This document shows positions 11,461 to 19,856 of a DNA stretch of 20,095 bases, piece after piece (the stretch's first letter is position 1; each line of letters starts with the position of its first letter). The translations under genes and the position numbers were made by a program. The DNA lies in IMG/VR virus record IMGVR_UViG_3300020176_000129, positions 1 through 20,095 of that record; one strand, given 5' to 3'. A model generated the notes under the pieces. It was given only the letters and a program-made list of their open reading frames with translations. It searched no databases and was not told the origin of the DNA. Source of the DNA: a virus.

Positions 11461-12732
11461 ATGAGCATTTTCGACAGATTTAGCCGTTTAGAGCAGGGCA
11501 AGTCGCCTTTGCCTCGGGCTAATATTATGCGCCAATATCAGACGCCTCAGGGGATTATTCCGCCAATGGCATTGCCTCGGCCTAGCCCGCCTCAGTCGGA
11601 AATGACGAAGTACCAGCAAAACCTGACGCCTATGGGCAGACGCATACTGGAAGGTCTGGCGGCCAAACGCGAAAGCGAAGGTGAGGCATCAACCCCTGCG
11701 GCCGGTCAGGTTAGCCTTAGCGGGCAACCAAAGGGCACTGACAGCTTCATGTCTCGCCTGATGACCCCACAGAGCCAAGGTATGCTAAGTGCCGCCGCTG
11801 CTGGCCTTGAGGCATCTGGGTGGCAAGACCGCCCCGTGTCGCTCGGTCAGGTTCTGGGTCGTATGGGCACTGCTGGGATAGAGGCTTACGGCGCGGCGCA
11901 AGACCGCCAAGAGGCGGCTGAGGAAAGAAAGCTGTCAAATCTGTTGAAGCAAGCAAAGATAGGCACCGAGCTTGCCAAAGGCAGTCAGGCTTTTAGCGGT
12001 ACTAGCATGACATCTCAGTCGTTTAATACACTTCTGAAAATAGGCCCTAAAATAAAAGCTGGCACAGCTACAGAGCCAGAGATGGCGCGGTACGATCTTG
12101 CCTTCGGTTATTTGGCAAAGCCAAAACAGCAAAAGACATACGACGACCTCGGCAATGAGACGATTACAACTATCCCAGCACAAGACCTTTCACAGTTTCC
12201 GTTGCCAAGAGGTGGGGCTGGCACAGTAGGGAAGGAAACAACGAAGCCGTCAACAGAGGCAATTAAGTCAGACAAGTTTGTCAAGTCTATGGATAGTATG
12301 GCTTTGAACGTAAACGCATATAGGCAAGCTCTGGCAAAACTAGACAGGCTTGATATGCTTAGTGGCGCGGCAGAAGTTCCTACAGATGCAATGGCAAACG
12401 CCGCATCTATAGCAGAAAGCCTCAGGCTAAATCTAAAAGAACTTTATGAACTCGGCGCTCTTGTGGGCGGTGACTTCCAAATTCTTGATAACCTATTGAC
12501 TAGCCCTAATTCAGCTAAGGCAGCAAAAATGGGCGGTACTGCACTTTCTATTCAGCTTGACCAACTTGAAAAAATACTTGGTCAAAAACTAGCTGAAAAA
12601 GACGCCACCTTATCGGGGACGTACAGCACCCCTATTCCTGTCAGTACCCCCGAAGAATGGGCGAAAGTTAAAATTGGTCAATACGGGAGACTACCAAACG
12701 GCCAAATTAAAATGAAGGTACAAACTCAATGA
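11461..12732 (+). CDS. Candidate ejection protein, second of three, 423 aa
   Basis: I do not recognise a named family. The N-terminal 75 residues are Pro/Gln-rich and look disordered. Residues about 97-165 form an amphipathic region with FMSRLMTPQSQGMLSAAAAG and VSLGQVLGRMGTAGIEAYGAA followed by a charged helix QDRQEAAEERKLSNLLKQAK. A second helical part spans about 275-390, with MALNVNAYRQALAKLDRLDM and IQLDQLEKILGQKLAEKDAT. The C-terminus ends PVSTPEEWAKVKIGQYGRLP and a short tail. A soluble, Ala/Gln-rich, helical protein of this size between the two neighbours parallels P22 gp20 (471 aa). It overlaps the next gene by ATGA. The ejection role is inference from size, order and composition. 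Confidence 0.62.
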   Translation: MSIFDRFSRLEQGKSPLPRANIMRQYQTPQGIIPPMALPRPSPPQSEMTKYQQNLTPMGRRILEGLAAKRESEGEASTPAAGQVSLSGQPKGTDSFMSRLMTPQSQGMLSAAAAGLEASGWQDRPVSLGQVLGRMGTAGIEAYGAAQDRQEAAEERKLSNLLKQAKIGTELAKGSQAFSGTSMTSQSFNTLLKIGPKIKAGTATEPEMARYDLAFGYLAKPKQQKTYDDLGNETITTIPAQDLSQFPLPRGGAGTVGKETTKPSTEAIKSDKFVKSMDSMALNVNAYRQALAKLDRLDMLSGAAEVPTDAMANAASIAESLRLNLKELYELGALVGGDFQILDNLLTSPNSAKAAKMGGTALSIQLDQLEKILGQKLAEKDATLSGTYSTPIPVSTPEEWAKVKIGQYGRLPNGQIKMKVQTQ

Positions 12733-14393
12733 GCAATTGGTATGACAACTTGGATGATGCCGTTGACGTCGGGCCGGCTCCGGCTCCTCAGTCCTCAAGA
12801 GAGTTTGACCCTATAGAGTTTGCCACTGGCCTTGCCCGGTCAATCGGTCAGGGGATTACGTTTGGAACGGCTGACGAGGCGGAGGCTTGGGCTACAAGCC
12901 TGCTCGGGGATGAGACTTACAAGCAAGCCCGTGATCGAATTAGAACTGAGCTTGAGCAGTTTCGCTCTGACTACCCCAAGACTGCTTATGGGTCGGAGAT
13001 AGCTTCATCGGTGGCGATGCCATTTGGCGTCGCAAAACTTGCTGGGAAAGGCATTGTCAAAGGCGCGGAAATGCTTAACAAGCCTGCCGCAGACTTAGCG
13101 GCGCAAAAACTTATGCAGGCCGGACAAAGCATTGCCGCAACAGCTCCAAAGGTCACAAAGGCGGTCACAAGCCCTGTGGGCACCGCCACAGGGTTAGGCG
13201 CAGCCTACGGCGCTGGTGCGGCTCCAGAGGTGTCGGATATACCCGAATATGCCGCCACGTCAGCCATACTATCTGGTGGGGCTCAAAAAGTATTGCCGCC
13301 AATTACAGAAGCCGCAAAAGACCTTATGCGGCGCGGCGTGCCCCTGACAGTCGGGCAGAAGTTTGGCGGCGCTATTGGCGGCCTTGAGGAGCGCCTGTCT
13401 GGATTGCCTATCGCTGACTTCTTGGTCGGTGGCGCTCGGCGTCGAGCTATTGATAAGTTTGGCACCGCCGCGTACAACGAGGCTTTAGCTCCAATTGGCG
13501 AGAAATTGCCTATGAAACTGAAGGGGCGTGACGCCTATATTGCCGCCGAAAGCAAAATAAATAACGCATACAAAAAAGTTTTGAGCGATGTGACTATCCC
13601 CGCGCCAACTGCGTTGGTTGCGTCGGTTGGTGCTATGGCAGCAGACTTGCCAGAGAAAGAGGCCAAGCAATTGGCGGCCATTATTAAAAGAGAAATCTCT
13701 CAAAGAGTTAAAGACGGAAAATTAACTGGTGAGGCGTTTAAAGAGGCTCAAAGCGCAATCAGGGGAAAGGCCTATCAGTTCACAACGTCAACCGACGCAT
13801 ATCAAAAGCAACTGGGTCAAGCCCTGAGTGACGCGGCTGAGGAGCTAACTTCTAGCCTAGCTAGAGCCAACCCCCAAAAGGCTGGTGAACTCAAAAACAT
13901 CGACACCACTTGGTCGCGTTTCAAGCCAATGCAGTTAGCTGCTGGGTCAAAAGGTCAAGAGGGCGGCGTCACGCCAGCCAAGCTGTTGGAAAAAGTTTAC
14001 AGCCAATCACGCCGTGCGCCTAGCGTTCTCGCTCGCGGGGAGGGGCGTATGCAATCCTTGGCCGAAACCGGCAAGGAAGTCCTCGGCACAAAGGTGCCGG
14101 ACACCGGAACAGCAGGCCGAAACCTATTCGCCCTTGGCGCACTTGGGTATGGCATTGATCCGGTCACAACAGCTTTAGCTGCTGGTGGCTTGGGTGCGGC
14201 GTATTCCCGCTCAGGGCAAGCGCTGGCGTCTGGGGCTATTGAGGCTGCACGGCGTGCCGGCAGGTCGCCGGCTGCCGCTGGGCTTCTTTCGGCGGAAGCT
14301 GACAAAATTGTTGGATATGAAAAAATTAGAGACAAAGCCGGAAACTTGGTGAATGTCGCTAAGACCGCTGGCGGCAGGTGGATACGACAATAG
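12729..14393 (+). CDS. Candidate ejection protein, third of three, 554 aa
   Basis: The N-terminal block has FATGLARSIGQGITFGTADE, LLGDETYKQARDRIRTELEQ and YPKTAYGSEIASSV (residues about 31-94), a combination I recall from large phage virion proteins (G.TFG.ADE.EA, then hP..A..GEi). Ala/Gly-rich hydrophobic stretches at about 145-190 and 465-530 could cross or perturb membranes. The middle (200-400) is helical and charged, with LTVGQKFGGAIGGLEERLSG and FGTAAYNEALAPIG. The long Ala/Gly segments suit a protein that unfolds, passes through the portal and refolds in the cell envelope. The length approaches P22 gp16 (609 aa). No lytic transglycosylase motif is evident. It is the last gene before the fibre cluster and is followed by a 43-base gap. 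Confidence 0.66.
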   Translation: MSNWYDNLDDAVDVGPAPAPQSSREFDPIEFATGLARSIGQGITFGTADEAEAWATSLLGDETYKQARDRIRTELEQFRSDYPKTAYGSEIASSVAMPFGVAKLAGKGIVKGAEMLNKPAADLAAQKLMQAGQSIAATAPKVTKAVTSPVGTATGLGAAYGAGAAPEVSDIPEYAATSAILSGGAQKVLPPITEAAKDLMRRGVPLTVGQKFGGAIGGLEERLSGLPIADFLVGGARRRAIDKFGTAAYNEALAPIGEKLPMKLKGRDAYIAAESKINNAYKKVLSDVTIPAPTALVASVGAMAADLPEKEAKQLAAIIKREISQRVKDGKLTGEAFKEAQSAIRGKAYQFTTSTDAYQKQLGQALSDAAEELTSSLARANPQKAGELKNIDTTWSRFKPMQLAAGSKGQEGGVTPAKLLEKVYSQSRRAPSVLARGEGRMQSLAETGKEVLGTKVPDTGTAGRNLFALGALGYGIDPVTTALAAGGLGAAYSRSGQALASGAIEAARRAGRSPAAAGLLSAEADKIVGYEKIRDKAGNLVNVAKTAGGRWIRQ

Positions 14394-14425
14394 CCAAAAC
14401 TATGCTATAAATAAGCTACGGCTTA
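14384..14425 (+). promoter_or_regulatory. Possible promoter or RNA hairpin before the fibre genes
   Basis: The 43-base gap 14394-14436 is one of the largest in the window. ACGACA (14384-14389) and TATAAA (14406-14411) with a 16-base spacer resemble a sigma70 promoter (4/6 and 5/6 matches). TAAGC (14412-14416) and GCTTA (14421-14425) form a 5-bp stem closed by a cUACGg tetraloop, a very stable RNA loop class, just before the CGGAG ribosome-binding site (14426-14430). The two readings partly exclude each other, because transcription from the promoter would start inside the hairpin. Confidence 0.3.
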
Positions 14426-14436
14426 CGGAGACTTAG

Positions 14437-14904
14437 ATGCCAAAAACAAAGATATCAGAGTACGACAGCGTCGCGGCTCAAAACACCGATCTTGACGGGA
14501 TAAACCTGTCGGAAGGTGTTATGGTGCCTAGCGACTTGAATAACTACTGCCGCGAGCAAATGGCACACCTAAAGGACTTCTCTGACGGCACTAGCGGAAT
14601 TGACGTACTAAACCTGCAAGACGACGCCGGCACGGCCTCTATCAAGCTGCAAGCGCCCGCAACGGTAACAACAACTGTGACGCTTACCCTGCCAGACGGA
14701 GTTGGCTCTGCAAATCAGGTATTGCAGACGGACGGCACCGGCACACTGTCTTGGGGCAGCGCGGTTAACTTTGGCAACTGGACTATCACAATGGACGTCA
14801 GCGGCAACCTGATTTTCACGCACAGCGGCACCGACGCTATGAAATTGTCCAGCGCAGGCGACTTGACCGTAATCGGTGACGTTACAGCATTTGGTACAAT
14901 CTAA
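14437..14904 (+). CDS. Tail fibre protein with N-terminal module A, 155 aa
   Basis: Residues 1-55 form a module with ISEYDSVAAQNTDLDG, SEGVMVPSDLNNYCRE and AHLKDFSDGTSGI. Residues 68-107 (IKLQAPATVTTTVTLTLPDG, then LQTDGTGTLSWG) align without gaps to the gene at 17123, with 25 of 40 residues identical by hand alignment. The C-terminus DVSGNLIFTHSGTDAMKLSS and AGDLTVIGDVT is the short-strand pattern common in fibre shafts. The protein is complete yet lacks a recognisable receptor-binding tip, so it may be an adaptor on which another fibre protein sits. CGGAG at 14426-14430 precedes the ATG. The stop overlaps the next gene as TAATG. Confidence 0.75.
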   Translation: MPKTKISEYDSVAAQNTDLDGINLSEGVMVPSDLNNYCREQMAHLKDFSDGTSGIDVLNLQDDAGTASIKLQAPATVTTTVTLTLPDGVGSANQVLQTDGTGTLSWGSAVNFGNWTITMDVSGNLIFTHSGTDAMKLSSAGDLTVIGDVTAFGTI

Positions 14905-15527
14905 TGGCCTTGCAAGCGTCTGGAGCCATCAGCATCAGCGAACTCGCCACGGAGTTTGGCGACACCGTGCCTAACTCTTTATCCGAGTTTTACAACGGTG
15001 GTTCGCTAGTTCCTGCCATTGCCTATGACCCTGTGACGGCCAGTAACTTGGCAGGCAGCAATTCCGCAAACCTAAGAACAGCACAATTTGGTGGATACGA
15101 CCCAGCAATCAATACAACCACCCCTACTACTTGCATTTACCTGCACCAGCTATGGGCAGATAACGGCTCGACAGGGACTGTCAACAGAACCTTTGTTGTT
15201 GATAAAACCGGCACATACAGCATTTATTTTGGTTGGTACTCTTATGGGTTTACCGCGCCGCTTACTGTTACGGTTAATGGGTCGCAGGTGTATTATAATA
15301 CTTTAATTTCGTACAATAGCACTGTTTCAACAACTGGTACATTTACCGCGTCTGCTGGCGACACGATAGGAATTGTGACAAGTTTCCCTTCTAGCGGGTG
15401 GTCTGGGCATTACACTTATATTGGTGGTAGCAGCGCGACTAGCAGAAGCATTGAGATTGCTAACAACTCATCTGTGCCTACAAGCGGTGTATTGTCGTTG
15501 TCCAACTTTTACGGAGCAAGCAGCTAA
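14904..15527 (+). CDS. Tail fibre / receptor-binding candidate, 207 aa
   Basis: The N-terminus ALQASGAISISELATEFGD (residues 2-20) and PNSLSEFYNGG, together with the C-terminus SGVLSLSNFYGASS (194-207), are motifs I know from the ends of cyanophage and other marine phage fibre proteins; both ends contain a variant of S-[LI]-S-[EN]-[FL]-Y/A-x-G. The middle (about 55-185) is beta-rich with many Thr, Ser, Tyr and Gly (KTGTYSIYFGWYSYG, TVTVNGSQVYYNTL, TASAGDTIGIVTSF), like a jelly-roll tip. The AT-rich middle contrasts with the GC-rich N-terminus. It is probably a virion adhesin; the receptor is unknown. Its stop overlaps the next start as TAATG. Confidence 0.72.
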   Translation: MALQASGAISISELATEFGDTVPNSLSEFYNGGSLVPAIAYDPVTASNLAGSNSANLRTAQFGGYDPAINTTTPTTCIYLHQLWADNGSTGTVNRTFVVDKTGTYSIYFGWYSYGFTAPLTVTVNGSQVYYNTLISYNSTVSTTGTFTASAGDTIGIVTSFPSSGWSGHYTYIGGSSATSRSIEIANNSSVPTSGVLSLSNFYGASS

Positions 15528-16813
15528 TGGCAAATACAATCAGAGATTACTCCGCAACCGCCGCCTCAAACACGGTAGTTGACGGCGCAGACATCTCCGA
15601 GGGTTGCAGCCCCGCAGGCATCAATGACGCAATTCGCGGTGTTATGGCTGACCTCAAGGACGTGTCTACCGGCGCGGTTGCGCTGGAAAGCCCTGCCGCT
15701 GACAGCTTGAGCGTAACCGGCAACGTGAGCGCGGCTACATTTAGCGGCGATGGCTCTAGTCTCACAGGCATCCCGACACCAACGCTAACCAGCTTGGGTA
15801 TTCCTAATCACGACCAAGTAACTGTGGATGGCTCTGGTAACGTGGGCATTGGTGGTTCGCCAGCTACGAACCTTCACATCCAACAAACTGGCAACGCTGG
15901 TAATAACTACAAACAAGGTAGTATTAAAATTGGTTCAACTTACGGAGTTGAAATAGGTTATAATGGTCTAAGTTCAGGACGAGCTAGCTTCACTTCGTTA
16001 AACAACGCTGGTACGACAAACAACAGAATGTCGTTTGGTTTTGGTGCAATCACAAGCGGCGGTGAACCAACAACTAATGTAATGACGCTAAACCAAGCGG
16101 GTGACGTGGGCATAGGGACATCAAATCCTGCTGGTAACAAACTTACTGTTGAAGGCGGTGCTAATGGCAGTGGGGTTTATCAACGGCTAAAGCACACAGG
16201 AAGCGCAGGGCAAAACAATACTGCCATATTTAATATTTCTACAGCTTCTAATACTAATAGTATGGAAGTAAATGAGCAGTATAATTATTCTGCTTTCCGT
16301 CATTACGGTAATTTGGTCAATCATTATTCGGATGTTGATAACCACCACTTTAGAACAAAAGGTGGCACAACAAAGATGACCATCGACAGTTCAGGCCGTG
16401 TCACGATGCCGTATCAGCCAGCTTGGGGCGCAAGATCTTTGTCTAACGCCACTAGCAGCGGCGGCACAAGCAATGCTAACGAAATTCTTAAATTTAGTTC
16501 AATAATTGTCAACACAGGCAATCATTATAATTCAAGTACAGGAGTTTTCACCTGCCCAGTTGCAGGACGCTATTTTGTTACGTTCAGTGGTCTTTATGAT
16601 GATAGTTACAACAATACTGGAGCAGTTTATATCAGACATAATGGATCGGAGAAATATCGAGGTTATCATCAAAACTCCGGTAGTTATTATGAACAGATTA
16701 GTATGAGTGGTGTAATAGATGCCGCTGCAAATGACACAATAGACATTTATTCGGTGATAGCCGGATGGCATATTGGTGGAGAAACTAGCTGGTCTGGTTT
16801 TCTAATTGGCTAA
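15527..16813 (+). CDS. Tail fibre protein with C1q-like tip, 428 aa
   Basis: Three parts are visible. Residues 1-50 are an N-terminal module related to those at 14437 and 17123 (IRDYSATAASNTVVDGADIS, then INDAIRGVMADLKDVSTG). Residues 55-290 are a shaft with repeats GNVGIGGSPATNLHI (about 107-121) and GDVGIGTSNPAGNKLTV (about 193-209). Residues 294-428 form a C1q-like domain: F323, N329, Y334, F341, G347, Y349 and F353 follow the C1q signature spacing F-x5-N-x4-Y-x6-F-x5-G-x-Y, with V351 in place of the usual Phe, and the end WSGFLIG is typical. C1q domains form trimeric jelly-roll heads that bind ligands, so this is a strong receptor-binding candidate. GC drops from about 58% (15541-15660) to about 33% (16201-16320). 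Confidence 0.87.
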   Translation: MANTIRDYSATAASNTVVDGADISEGCSPAGINDAIRGVMADLKDVSTGAVALESPAADSLSVTGNVSAATFSGDGSSLTGIPTPTLTSLGIPNHDQVTVDGSGNVGIGGSPATNLHIQQTGNAGNNYKQGSIKIGSTYGVEIGYNGLSSGRASFTSLNNAGTTNNRMSFGFGAITSGGEPTTNVMTLNQAGDVGIGTSNPAGNKLTVEGGANGSGVYQRLKHTGSAGQNNTAIFNISTASNTNSMEVNEQYNYSAFRHYGNLVNHYSDVDNHHFRTKGGTTKMTIDSSGRVTMPYQPAWGARSLSNATSSGGTSNANEILKFSSIIVNTGNHYNSSTGVFTCPVAGRYFVTFSGLYDDSYNNTGAVYIRHNGSEKYRGYHQNSGSYYEQISMSGVIDAAANDTIDIYSVIAGWHIGGETSWSGFLIG

Positions 16814-16831
16814 CTCAACGGAGTAAAAACA

Positions 16832-17116
16832 ATGACACAAACAATTACAATCGAACTGACAGATACTCAGTTCAAAGGACTAGAATACGCTGCATTGTCT
16901 CCGCAAGAGTGGGCTGAGAACGCAGTGACTGAACGTGCAAGGATTGCTAACGATGAAATCGTGCAGCTAACAGTCCAGCATTGCTTAGACAACGGCATCC
17001 AAGTTCCTGCTACTCGTGAAGCAATCGTAGCGTATGCGTTCGATAACGACATTGTTAAGACTGCTGCGGTACGTCAGGCGGAAGCTGAAGCGCAAGCCAT
17101 CCCCCAGCCGGAGTAA
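16832..17116 (+). CDS. Small conserved protein of the fibre cluster, 94 aa
   Basis: The protein starts MTQTITIELTDTQFKGLEYA and has SPQEWAENAVTERARIANDE, IVQLTVQHCLDNGIQVPA and a C-terminal charged helix ending AEAQAIPQPE. The first strand and following helices resemble a short ribbon-helix type fold, but no DNA-binding family can be asserted. I recall proteins with ELTD..YKALEFAA.SP.EW..NAV...RI..DEI beside tail fibre genes in marine phages, unnamed. Possible roles are a fibre chaperone or minor structural protein; position is the only support. CGGAG at 16819-16823 is a good ribosome-binding site 8 bases before the ATG. Confidence 0.75.
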   Translation: MTQTITIELTDTQFKGLEYAALSPQEWAENAVTERARIANDEIVQLTVQHCLDNGIQVPATREAIVAYAFDNDIVKTAAVRQAEAEAQAIPQPE

Positions 17117-17122
17117 CCCATA

Positions 17123-17920
17123 ATGGCACGCGACAAGCTAATAGAGTACGACCAGACCGCCGCGAATAACACGGTGATTGGTGACGTCAACACCAGCGAG
17201 ACTATGTTGCCGTCTGAGGTTAACGACGCCTTTCGCGAGCTTGCCAGCCACCTCAAGGAGTTTGCCGACGGCACCAGCGGCATCAACGCCCTGAGCCTGA
17301 CTGACGATACCGACACCAACGCAATCAAGTTCCAGGCGCCTGCAAGCGTTACCGCGACCACCACCTTCACGCTGCCTGACGGCGACGGCACCAGCGGTCA
17401 GGCCATTATCACTGACGGCGCTGGCACGCTGACTTGGGGCGATGCTGGCGGCGGGTCAAACGTGTTTACGCTGTTTGAGTTTACGGCCACGTCAGGCCAG
17501 ACCACATTCACTGGCGCGGATGACAACGCCGCGACACTGGCATACGGCGCAGGCAAAATCATCGTGACGATGAACGGCGTGACGCTCGACCCATCGGATT
17601 ACACCGCCACCAACGGCACCAGCCTTGTGCTGGCATCTGGGGCTGCTGTGGGCGACATAGTAAACATTTACGCCTTCAGCACATTCTCTGTGGCTGACAC
17701 GGTTGCGGCCTCAACAGGCGGCACTTTTTCTGGTAATATAACCGCACCAAGTTTCCAGACTACGGCCACAAAGATGCACACGGCAGTATTCCGTACTAAT
17801 GAGCAGACGGTTACGCAGAACACGACAATTGCTACGGCAGAAAATGCGCTGGCTATTGGCCCACTGACTATAGACCCATCAGCCACAATCACGGTTGACG
17901 GCAACTTAACAATACTGTGA
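17123..17920 (+). CDS. Tail fibre protein with module A and T7-fibre-like domain, 265 aa
   Basis: Residues 1-106 repeat the module of the 14437 gene (LIEYDQTAANNTVIGDVNTS; MLPSEVNDAFRELASHLKEF; DGTSGI; QAPASVTATTTFTLPDGDGT). Residues about 118-190 (FEFTATSGQTTFTGADDNAA, then GKIIVTMNGVTLDPSDYTAT and AAVGDIVNIYAFSTF) are a beta domain found at the start of many phage fibres and resembling the N-terminal, virion-attaching region of the T7 gp17 family. The C-terminus (about 222-265) with NEQTVTQNTTIATAENALAI and TIDPSATITVDGNLTIL is a common short fibre ending. It lacks a large tip domain. Its GC is high (70 of 120 bases at 17161-17280), like the structural genes and unlike the fibre-tip genes around it. 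Confidence 0.82.
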   Translation: MARDKLIEYDQTAANNTVIGDVNTSETMLPSEVNDAFRELASHLKEFADGTSGINALSLTDDTDTNAIKFQAPASVTATTTFTLPDGDGTSGQAIITDGAGTLTWGDAGGGSNVFTLFEFTATSGQTTFTGADDNAATLAYGAGKIIVTMNGVTLDPSDYTATNGTSLVLASGAAVGDIVNIYAFSTFSVADTVAASTGGTFSGNITAPSFQTTATKMHTAVFRTNEQTVTQNTTIATAENALAIGPLTIDPSATITVDGNLTIL

Positions 17921-17927
17921 GGCATAG

Positions 17928-18491
17928 ATGGCTTCGATATTAAATGTAGACCAAATCAACAACGCCGCTGGGACAGGTGCTATTACGATTGACGCAAGCA
18001 CAGGTAAGCCATCGTTTCCGAATGGTGCGAACTTGCCAGCGGGTAGTGTGCTTCAGGTTGCTCAGTCCAGAAAAACAGACACAACATTTACAACAACATC
18101 TACCAGTTTTGTAAGCGTTCCAGATTTAAGCGTAACACTTACCCCAACAAGCACCTCCAGTAAATTTTTGGTAACAGCGAGTGTTTCAGTTGGGGCGTAT
18201 TGGTGGGCGGCAAATGGTTATTTTGGCGTTTACGCAAATGGAACTACTATTGCGGGAGATGGCGGCAACTTGTGGGTGTATCAATATGGTGCAGATTCTT
18301 CAAACTCTGTGGGTGAGACAATGCAGTGGTCTGAAGAAGTCCTTTACGCACCAAGCACAACCTCACCAATCACCTTTCAAGTTGTTGTAGCATCAAGCAC
18401 TTCCTCTTATGCACTTTGTGTAAACAGGCAGCAAGTTGCTGCAAATAAACGTGGTAATAGTTGGATTACCGTTAGGGAGATTGCTGGATGA
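17928..18491 (+). CDS. Fibre-tip protein, paralogue 1 of 3, 187 aa
   Basis: The N-terminus MASILNVDQINNAAGTGAIT is the short attachment-type motif seen in all three paralogues (SILxVxxIxN). It is followed by SVLQVAQSRKTDTT and the core SVTLTPTSTSSKFLVTASVS (residues about 64-83), then NGYFGVYANGTTIAGDG and a final strand WITVREIAG. I know TPTSTSSK-LV plus RDGT/ANGT-type domains from many phage fibre tips; they are beta-sandwiches. It is probably a receptor-binding or tip component. It ends ATGA into paralogue 2. The N-terminal coding part is GC-richer than the core. The 16-mer AGTGTGCTTCAGGTTG at 18045-18060 recurs exactly in paralogue 3. Confidence 0.8.
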   Translation: MASILNVDQINNAAGTGAITIDASTGKPSFPNGANLPAGSVLQVAQSRKTDTTFTTTSTSFVSVPDLSVTLTPTSTSSKFLVTASVSVGAYWWAANGYFGVYANGTTIAGDGGNLWVYQYGADSSNSVGETMQWSEEVLYAPSTTSPITFQVVVASSTSSYALCVNRQQVAANKRGNSWITVREIAG

Positions 18492-18976
18492 GTACGCTCT
18501 ACGTTGATACGATTAACGAGAAGACTAGCGGCAACGGTGTGCAGATTCCGGGTCATGTGGTGCAGGTACAAAATGTTGAAGGAAACACACAAACTTCTGT
18601 TTCTGCTAGTGGTACTGGTAGAGTTTATGCTGACCTTTTAACAATTTCATACACTCCAACATCCTCCTCAAATAAAATTGTTTTACTTGGAACTTGTGGG
18701 TTTGGCAGTAATACTAGCGAATCAGCGGCGGGTGCCTTTGGTGTTATTTTTGAGGTTAATGGCACTAATCACGGTTTTGGAAATTATCCGTGGTATGATA
18801 GCGCTCTTGTGTATCCGCTTTACCCACCAGACACAACAATTTCAAAAACCGTAGCAGTCCCTACTGGAAGCACTTTTGATATAAAGCTAAAAGGATATTC
18901 ATATAATGAATCGATCGGCACTATGACGGTAAGATTCTATGAATACTCATTGACCGTGATGGAGATTGCACAATGA
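18488..18976 (+). CDS. Fibre-tip protein, paralogue 2 of 3, 162 aa
   Basis: It starts MSTLYVDTINEKTSGNGVQI, the same attachment-type motif with L-Y-V-D-T-I-N in place of I-L-N-V-D-Q-I-N. It continues PGHVVQVQNVEG, the core SYTPTSSSNKIVLLGTCGFG (about residues 51-70), FGVIFEVNGTNHGFGN and the closing strand LTVMEIAQ. It is the most diverged of the three and has no 16-base repeat. Its shared ending (V/L-x-E-I-A) and core order place it in the same family. The sampled interior, 18601-18720, has 45 of 120 G or C. It overlaps both neighbours by ATGA, so the three are likely made from one message. Confidence 0.78.
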   Translation: MSTLYVDTINEKTSGNGVQIPGHVVQVQNVEGNTQTSVSASGTGRVYADLLTISYTPTSSSNKIVLLGTCGFGSNTSESAAGAFGVIFEVNGTNHGFGNYPWYDSALVYPLYPPDTTISKTVAVPTGSTFDIKLKGYSYNESIGTMTVRFYEYSLTVMEIAQ

Positions 18977-19455
18977 CGAGCATATTGAAAGTCTCCACAA
19001 TCCAGAACACGGCGGGTGGCGCACCGACTGCGGCTGACTTGGGGCTGAATGTAACTGGGAGTGTGCTTCAGGTTGTAAGTAACTTTACCAAAGCAGACAT
19101 TAATACATCCTCCAGCAGCTTTGTGTCCACAGGACTTTCAGCAAGCATCACCCCAACATCCACGTCAAGTAAAGTGCTTGTGATTGTAAGTGTTGGTAGT
19201 TTTTATGTGAATGCAAATAACGCTCTCGCAACCGTTTTTAGAGACACAACCAATATTGGTGACAGTAGTGCTGGATTAATGCAGGTGTACCAAAATGCTT
19301 CTTATGCGCCAGCAACCTGTCAAGTTTTAGACGCACCTGCTAGCACATCCTCTTTAACTTATACGGTTCACTTTCGTGCGGCAAACGGCATAAGTTACAT
19401 TTCGTACCCAACTTATGGACATTTCACCATAACCCTAATGGAAATCGCAGGATAA
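18973..19455 (+). CDS. Fibre-tip protein, paralogue 3 of 3, 160 aa
   Basis: It starts MTSILKVSTIQNTAGGAPTA and continues GSVLQVVSNFTKADINTSSS, the core SASITPTSTSSKVLVIVSVG (about residues 55-74), a strand LATVFRDTTNIGDSSAG and the last strand FTITLMEIAG. The RDTTNIGD element is the usual RD-T-x-I-G of this fibre-tip type. It is closest to paralogue 1: the same SVLQV motif (coded by the identical 16-mer at 19060-19075), core and ending. It lacks paralogue 1's longer loops, hence 160 rather than 187 aa. It is followed by a 14-base gap with GGAG before the chaperone gene. Confidence 0.8.
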   Translation: MTSILKVSTIQNTAGGAPTAADLGLNVTGSVLQVVSNFTKADINTSSSSFVSTGLSASITPTSTSSKVLVIVSVGSFYVNANNALATVFRDTTNIGDSSAGLMQVYQNASYAPATCQVLDAPASTSSLTYTVHFRAANGISYISYPTYGHFTITLMEIAG

Positions 19456-19469
19456 CAGGAGTAAATAAA

Positions 19470-19856
19470 ATGGCATCAATAGCAGAGGCTCTGACCGAAC
19501 TAGGCATCACCGAATGGGTGTTGCGCGGTGAGCCAACAAATGAAGCAGAGTTCAACGAGATGTTCCGTAAGGTTACGGGGGCTGACGCAAACGGCTCGGC
19601 TATCGAAAGCAGCAACCAAGCTGACTGGGGATGTAGCTGGGCAACCGTCAACGCAAAGCTAACCGAGCTTAACGCAGCAGAGCCTTTGAAGCTGTTACGC
19701 GCCGAGCGTGACCGCTTGATTGCGGCTACCGACTGGTGGGCATCGTCTGACCTTACAATGAGCGCCGAGCGTACAGCATACCGTCAGGCACTGCGTGATA
19801 TCACTGACAGCTACACCTCGCTTGACGATGTTGTGTGGCCTACAAAGCCGGAGTAA
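19470..19856 (+). CDS. Tail fibre assembly chaperone candidate, 128 aa
   Basis: Residues about 76-128 match the tail assembly chaperone pattern I know from Pfam PF16778: LRAERDRLIAATDWWASSDL, then RTAYRQALRDITDSYTS and a closing VVWPTKP. The N-terminal half (ALTELGITEWVLRGEPTNEA and MFRKVTGADANGSAIES) is a second conserved element that often accompanies it in marine phages. Such proteins help fibre trimers fold or assemble and are usually encoded beside the fibres, as here. The name rests on the C-terminal pattern; the function is inferred from family and place. GGAG at about 19458-19461 lies about 9 bases before the ATG. Confidence 0.8.
   Translation: MASIAEALTELGITEWVLRGEPTNEAEFNEMFRKVTGADANGSAIESSNQADWGCSWATVNAKLTELNAAEPLKLLRAERDRLIAATDWWASSDLTMSAERTAYRQALRDITDSYTSLDDVVWPTKPE

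Follow-up and report, generated by a model that had tools for sequence, protein, structure and literature searches.

The tail fibre gene analysed here probably encodes a receptor-binding protein with an N-terminal anchor, a shaft and a swappable C1q tip, whose assembly is assisted by the product of a small partner gene. The partner may well represent an undescribed family of helical proteins of ~90 aa dedicated to folding or trimerisation of C1q heads. Head and partner would then make up a mobile two-gene cassette that passes between T7-like, T4-like and other phages, and locally the head of ~370 bp would be swapped alone between two short, near-identical blocks; we hold this reading with middling confidence. 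The window, by which we mean the whole stretch of DNA analysed, is a linear virus record of 20,095 bp. It contains portal, scaffolding, major head and other virion genes together with a DNA-ejection-type gene, and its gene order is close to that of Methylophilales phage Venkman EXVC282S. As part of the same overall explanation, the phage is likely podovirus-like and of a marine type. Short fibre genes stand in a row from position 14437 to the end of the window, and the features discussed below are collected in Table 1.

Table 1. Positions of the fibre gene, its parts and its surroundings in the window.
Feature	Position	Strand	Basis
Tail fibre gene, 428 aa	15527..16813	+	ATG-started open ORF; C1q domain; within the fibre-gene row of a tailed phage
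Virion anchor module (putative), residues 1-96	15527..15816	+	Common to two neighbouring genes and Venkman gp50
Probable shaft, residues 97-293, GNVGIG...-type repeats	15817..16405	+	Sequence
C1q head, residues 294-428	16406..16810	+	Pfam, PDB profile, AlphaFold, Foldseek
5' DNA block at the shaft-head junction, GGCCGTGTCACGATGCCGTATCAGCC	16394..16419	+	Recurs in IMG/VR contigs
3' DNA block: last head codons, ribosome-binding site, partner gene start	16802..16900	+	Near-identical across phages with different C1q heads
Partner gene, 94 aa, predicted all-helical	16832..17116	+	Linked to C1q heads; model pLDDT 92.7
Neighbouring fibre gene, same anchor, other C-terminus	14437..14904	+	Anchor alignment
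Neighbouring fibre gene, same anchor, other C-terminus	17123..17920	+	Anchor alignment

On profile matches and a predicted fold, the C-terminus of the fibre protein is a true C1q domain. The sequence-only reading had proposed such a head, and the reading frame, the residues F323, N329, Y334, F341, G347, Y349, V351 and F353 and the WSGFLIG ending were found exactly as it quoted them. Pfam PF00386 matched residues 315-427 with an E-value of 7.6e-14 and 52.4 bits, against a gathering cutoff of 23.7, and the head alone scored 55.4 bits. A phmmer search of the PDB returned C1q-like 2/3, adiponectin and C1q itself. The profile of 69 sequences, comprising the window and IMG/VR heads, was matched by C1q-family chains in the PDB at positions 13-142 of 143, with an E-value of about 5e-21 for single-domain chains. 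The AlphaFold single-chain model of residues 282-428 (mean pLDDT 90.1) is a beta-sandwich of nine strands with the C1q/TNF jelly-roll fold. Its top 50 Foldseek matches in the PDB are all C1q-family heads, the first being C1QL2 (E 1e-12, TM 0.86 by target length). Neither of the two outcomes that would have spoken against the proposal, a fold of another kind or the lack of a C1q-family profile hit, was obtained. The MPYQPAW motif at the shaft-head junction marks the start of the domain, and WSGFLIG, at the stop codon and resembling the endings of animal C1q heads, marks its end. By profile and predicted fold the window head is the same domain as the heads of animal C1q, C1q-like 1-3 and adiponectin, but it is only about 25% identical to the animal family and sits on a phage shaft and anchor instead of a collagen-like stalk. 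The eight-position signature on which the proposal had leaned is present at seven positions, with V351 for Phe, but it proved a poor criterion. Its complete form occurs in 12 of 187 viral C1q heads (and in 0 of 1053 non-C1q ORFs), and as a membership test it was rejected as too strict for viral heads.

Residues 1-96 would fix the fibre to the virion, followed by the shaft and, at the tip, the C1q (gC1q) head, presumably a trimer in contact with the host surface. The anchor is common to two other fibre genes, as had been claimed, with E-values of 7e-7 for the upstream neighbour and 6e-5 for the downstream one in addition to the alignment. The gene has the N-terminal virion anchor common to other fibre genes of tailed phages. 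The window is homologous at the DNA level to two syntenic relatives, L092 and L093, as far as 15816 and no further. The 80 IMG/VR loci fetched with the anchor showed many different C-termini behind similar first ~55 residues, and C1q was present in none of the 58 complete anchor-bearing fibres among them that had enough downstream sequence. Residues 97-293 gave no Pfam match and likely form the shaft.

The suggestion that the head is exchangeable gained support at the DNA level from shared flanking blocks and from other heads behind the same shaft DNA or anchor. In related phages the head is replaced by unrelated heads at sharp DNA boundaries. On the 5' side, the GGCCGTGTCACGATGCCGTATCAGCC block is present in 17 IMG/VR contigs, with 18 occurrences in all, and the 16 readable heads behind it are all C1q, 15 of them distinct. 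One contig (L091) is 100% identical to the window from 12027 to 16422 (4,396 bp) and ends 3 bp past this block. Two others (L255 and L266) share 93% DNA identity over 213 bp of shaft and block, whereas their C1q heads beyond it are only 35% identical. On the 3' side, L011/L273 is 92.7% identical to the window from 16802 on, through the last head codons, the partner gene and the start of the next gene, and its C1q head has no significant match to that of the window. In five phages that differ in their C1q heads, the DNA running from the final head codons into the small gene is almost identical. Over the 45 nearest loci, by comparison, DNA identity of the heads was 0.59-0.68, which is the level of shuffled sequence (0.62). 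Contig ends fell within 50 bp on the head side in 3 of 35 matches to either block, against 0.2 expected (Poisson p 0.001), and these ends are likely assembly forks with several heads behind one flank.

A larger replacement is seen in L092, where the neighbours and the anchor are as in the window. In place of window positions 15817 to about 17106, this relative carries a shaft and a Gly-rich head (PF21722, E 3.6e-23), together with a 120-aa gene other than the partner. The unit of exchange would be either the head alone, between the two blocks of Table 1, or the shaft, head and partner gene together, when compared with this Gly-rich version. The small downstream gene, which the sequence-only reading had left unmentioned, is often part of what is exchanged. 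Homologous recombination involving these short blocks of common DNA may bring about head exchange. We also considered the junction block as globally conserved DNA and rejected this, synonymous codon identity over 63 diverse loci being 0.44 for the block and 0.40 for the head. Across these loci the junction is kept as protein and not as DNA, so the blocks reflect exchange among related phages and no universal site. Further along the row, positions 17928-19455 of the window hold three more short fibre-like genes with other anchors, 4-bp overlaps and a common ...EIA(Q/G) ending, and a PF16778 tail chaperone gene follows them at 19470-19856 (Pfam). In L273 the starts of these three genes match the window and the heads differ, so the whole row may vary as the C1q head does.

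The partner gene starts 19 bp past the fibre stop. Its relatives lie 12-30 bp behind C1q fibres in a T4-like contig (L004), another phage contig (L005), S-SRM01 (L006) and Limnohabitans phage DC33 (L007). The partner loci, the best 80 of 461, were fetched with the small protein alone, a query that had first been noticed beside C1q. In these best 80 loci, the 75 partner copies with an upstream ORF form 46 clusters, and the upstream ORF is C1q in 44 of the 46, compared with 16 of the 326 remaining ORFs at these loci. Since the loci counted here had also served to iterate the viral C1q profile, an independent check matters, and Pfam called C1q in 44 of 47 members, including the window, among the upstream ORFs of these best 80 of 461 loci. 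Of the members without a Pfam C1q call, one is a PF16778 chaperone gene and another an HNH endonuclease inserted in the small gene. Over all fetched ORFs of at least 150 aa, the partner lies directly behind 125 of 218 C1q ORFs versus 1 of 921 others; the roughly 40% of C1q ORFs with no adjacent partner gene are mainly short fibres. None of the 58 non-C1q fibres bearing the window anchor is followed by the partner, which, together with the 44 of 46 clusters, ties the partner to the head and not to the anchor.

The linkage extends over 82 non-redundant fibre-partner pairs in 32 anchor clusters, with a median gap of 16 bp, and at four loci with two C1q fibres each fibre has its own partner copy. 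Four loci were reached in other ways, one in Roseobacter phage CRP-403 and three on MAG contigs, and in each of them the viral profile identifies the ORF immediately upstream as C1q-type; Pfam missed the C1q of CRP-403 and left one more of the four below cutoff. In CRP-403 the pair is gp35/gp36, the fibre has a T7-type anchor, and the viral profile detects its C1q tip with an E-value of 2e-15; CRP-403 and Limnohabitans phage DC33 are cultured phages with the natural pair. A scan of 84,980 prokaryote genomes gave three partner loci, all on phage-like MAG contigs with C1q upstream, and found no cellular use of the gene.

Several observations were made beside these counts. At L074:1120-2034 an HNH endonuclease stretch is apparently inserted into a partner-gene copy, and in L036, L037, L039 and L040 the small gene comes after a PF16778 chaperone gene and is separated from the C1q fibre by several genes. 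A gene of ~120 aa starting MAHFAKV... (L092:4785-5147 and relatives) lies directly behind Gly-rich heads at all but one locus found, and it has no Pfam or NCBIfam match. That Gly-rich heads have their own 120-aa follower would agree with a general pairing of each kind of head with one kind of follower. Phage DC33 (PQ492659.1) is filed under Inoviridae, a taxonomy that looks wrong because the record is 39 kb long and relatives of its C1q fibre gene occur in tailed phages.

The modelled partner protein includes one helix of 31 residues, and neither its sequence profile nor its fold gave an accepted match in Pfam, PHROGs, NCBIfam, PDB or BFVD. Weak matches to DHOase (Pfam) and dnd_restrict_1 (NCBIfam) were rejected as below the curated cutoffs, the DHOase match being absent in other members. 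Having no sequence or fold match to APC PF16778, Tfa or DUF4376, the protein is not filed under any of them. Its gene lies directly downstream of, and is linked to, the fibre that would be its client, which is the position of a fibre chaperone. In cyanophage Pam3, the chaperone gp25 serves the fibre gp24, which has a TNF-like domain; gp25 trimerises via a helical bundle and is undetected in the virion (PMC9608196). The Pam3 pair resembles the window pair in its TNF-like fibre domain, small helper gene and helical part of the helper, but gp25 is Tfa-like, 162 aa long and has a beta-sandwich arm (PMC9608196), whereas the 94-aa window protein has no such domain and gave no match in sequence or fold. 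Alteromonas phages A5/V22 likewise have a fibre and a cognate chaperone shared across distant phage families, although there the helper is DUF4376 and the heads are lectin-like, not C1q (PMC10579305). Chaperone-like position, linkage to C1q and these analogues favour an assembly factor, and by analogy with dedicated tail-fibre chaperones the small protein may help the C1q head to fold or trimerise. This reading is weakened by the roughly 40% of C1q ORFs that lack an adjacent partner, by the weak correlation between head and partner distances given below, and by the absence of any sequence or fold resemblance to known chaperones.

The presence of one partner copy per C1q fibre, directly downstream, would also suit a structural piece of the fibre tip, such as a cap or co-receptor subunit, that stays on the virion instead of acting transiently in assembly, and the lack of a match to known chaperones points the same way. 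We regard this as unlikely, since the partner is small and all-helical, its position tracks the change of head as that of fibre chaperones does, and Pam3 gp25 is absent from virions (PMC9608196). A gene with no role in the fibre is less probable still. It could be a hitch-hiker that provides right-hand homology for exchange, or it could act in superinfection exclusion at the receptor. The partner DNA is indeed the conserved right-hand flank of the head, and distances between heads and partners correlate weakly (Mantel r 0.22, compared with 0.26 for anchor and partner), so that tight co-divergence of head and partner was rejected. However, an intact protein is kept, with W27, R35 and R37 invariant in 45 sequences, and a hitch-hiker would not need linkage to C1q over 32 unrelated anchors and in distant phages. 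As to a protective role, the partner sequence, judged by eye, shows neither an evident signal peptide nor a membrane stretch. An assembly factor for the C1q head thus remains our preferred reading of the small protein.

The sequence-only reading had taken C1q heads to be rare, though known, in bacteria and phages; among aquatic phages they are in fact common, and they have been published before (PMC3909814). A scan with a single conserved C1q peptide pattern gave at least 339 confirmed viral stretches in IMG/VR. A DNA-similarity search with the window protein alone returned 10 phage records, and an alignment query reached more C1q loci. In IMG/VR loci such as L203, L213 and L225 we observed runs of very short C1q fibres of about 160-190 aa whose anchor is of the MxSxLKVDxI type. 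No partner gene accompanies these fibres, which form a second class of C1q fibre. The available parts of Mizuno et al. (2014) place C1q-domain genes among the commonest identifiable genes of marine phage variable islands, and report that metavirome reads were recruited far better by the N-terminus than by the C1q part (PMC3909814). They describe hypervariable receptor-binding genes with a C1q domain in pelagiphage clusters C24/C28 (PMC3909814). Like the window gene, these have a C-terminal C1q in the fibre region, with a conserved N-terminus and a hypervariable C1q part; unlike our analysis, that account in its available parts describes neither exchange boundaries nor a partner gene (PMC3909814). 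C1q/TNF-like heads on viral spikes, tail proteins or phage-derived fibres, as in the window, are also reported for cryoconite phages (PMC7468147), eCIS fibres (PMC12923769), tectivirus Toil gp30 (PMC5773508) and cyanophage S-B05 (PMC7824862). Their anchors differ from that of the window, and the accessible portions of these reports mention no partner gene.

The position, variability and exchange of the head suggest that it binds a host surface ligand. The gC1q domain nucleates trimers in collagens VIII and X, and several relatives of the window head also match BclA_C weakly. A C1q domain serving as a trimerisation cap only, with host recognition elsewhere in shaft loops or neighbouring fibres, is nevertheless quite improbable, since the head is the most divergent part, is swapped for others, including non-C1q heads, on the same anchor, and is under-recruited relative to the N-terminus in metaviromes according to the available parts of the published analysis (PMC3909814).

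Given the published cases and the IMG/VR relatives, a C1q-tipped phage fibre alone is not new, and hypervariable ones were already known in pelagiphages; the new elements are the boundaries of exchange and the helical gene linked to the head. Published accounts of hypervariable marine phage C1q fibres, in their available parts, do not explain how heads are exchanged or how they are assembled. The boundaries described here illustrate how a phage can retain its anchor yet change its head. If the partner is an assembly factor for C1q heads, this immune-type fold would become testable in cultured phages, and the small gene would serve as a marker for receptor-binding genes in poorly annotated viromes.
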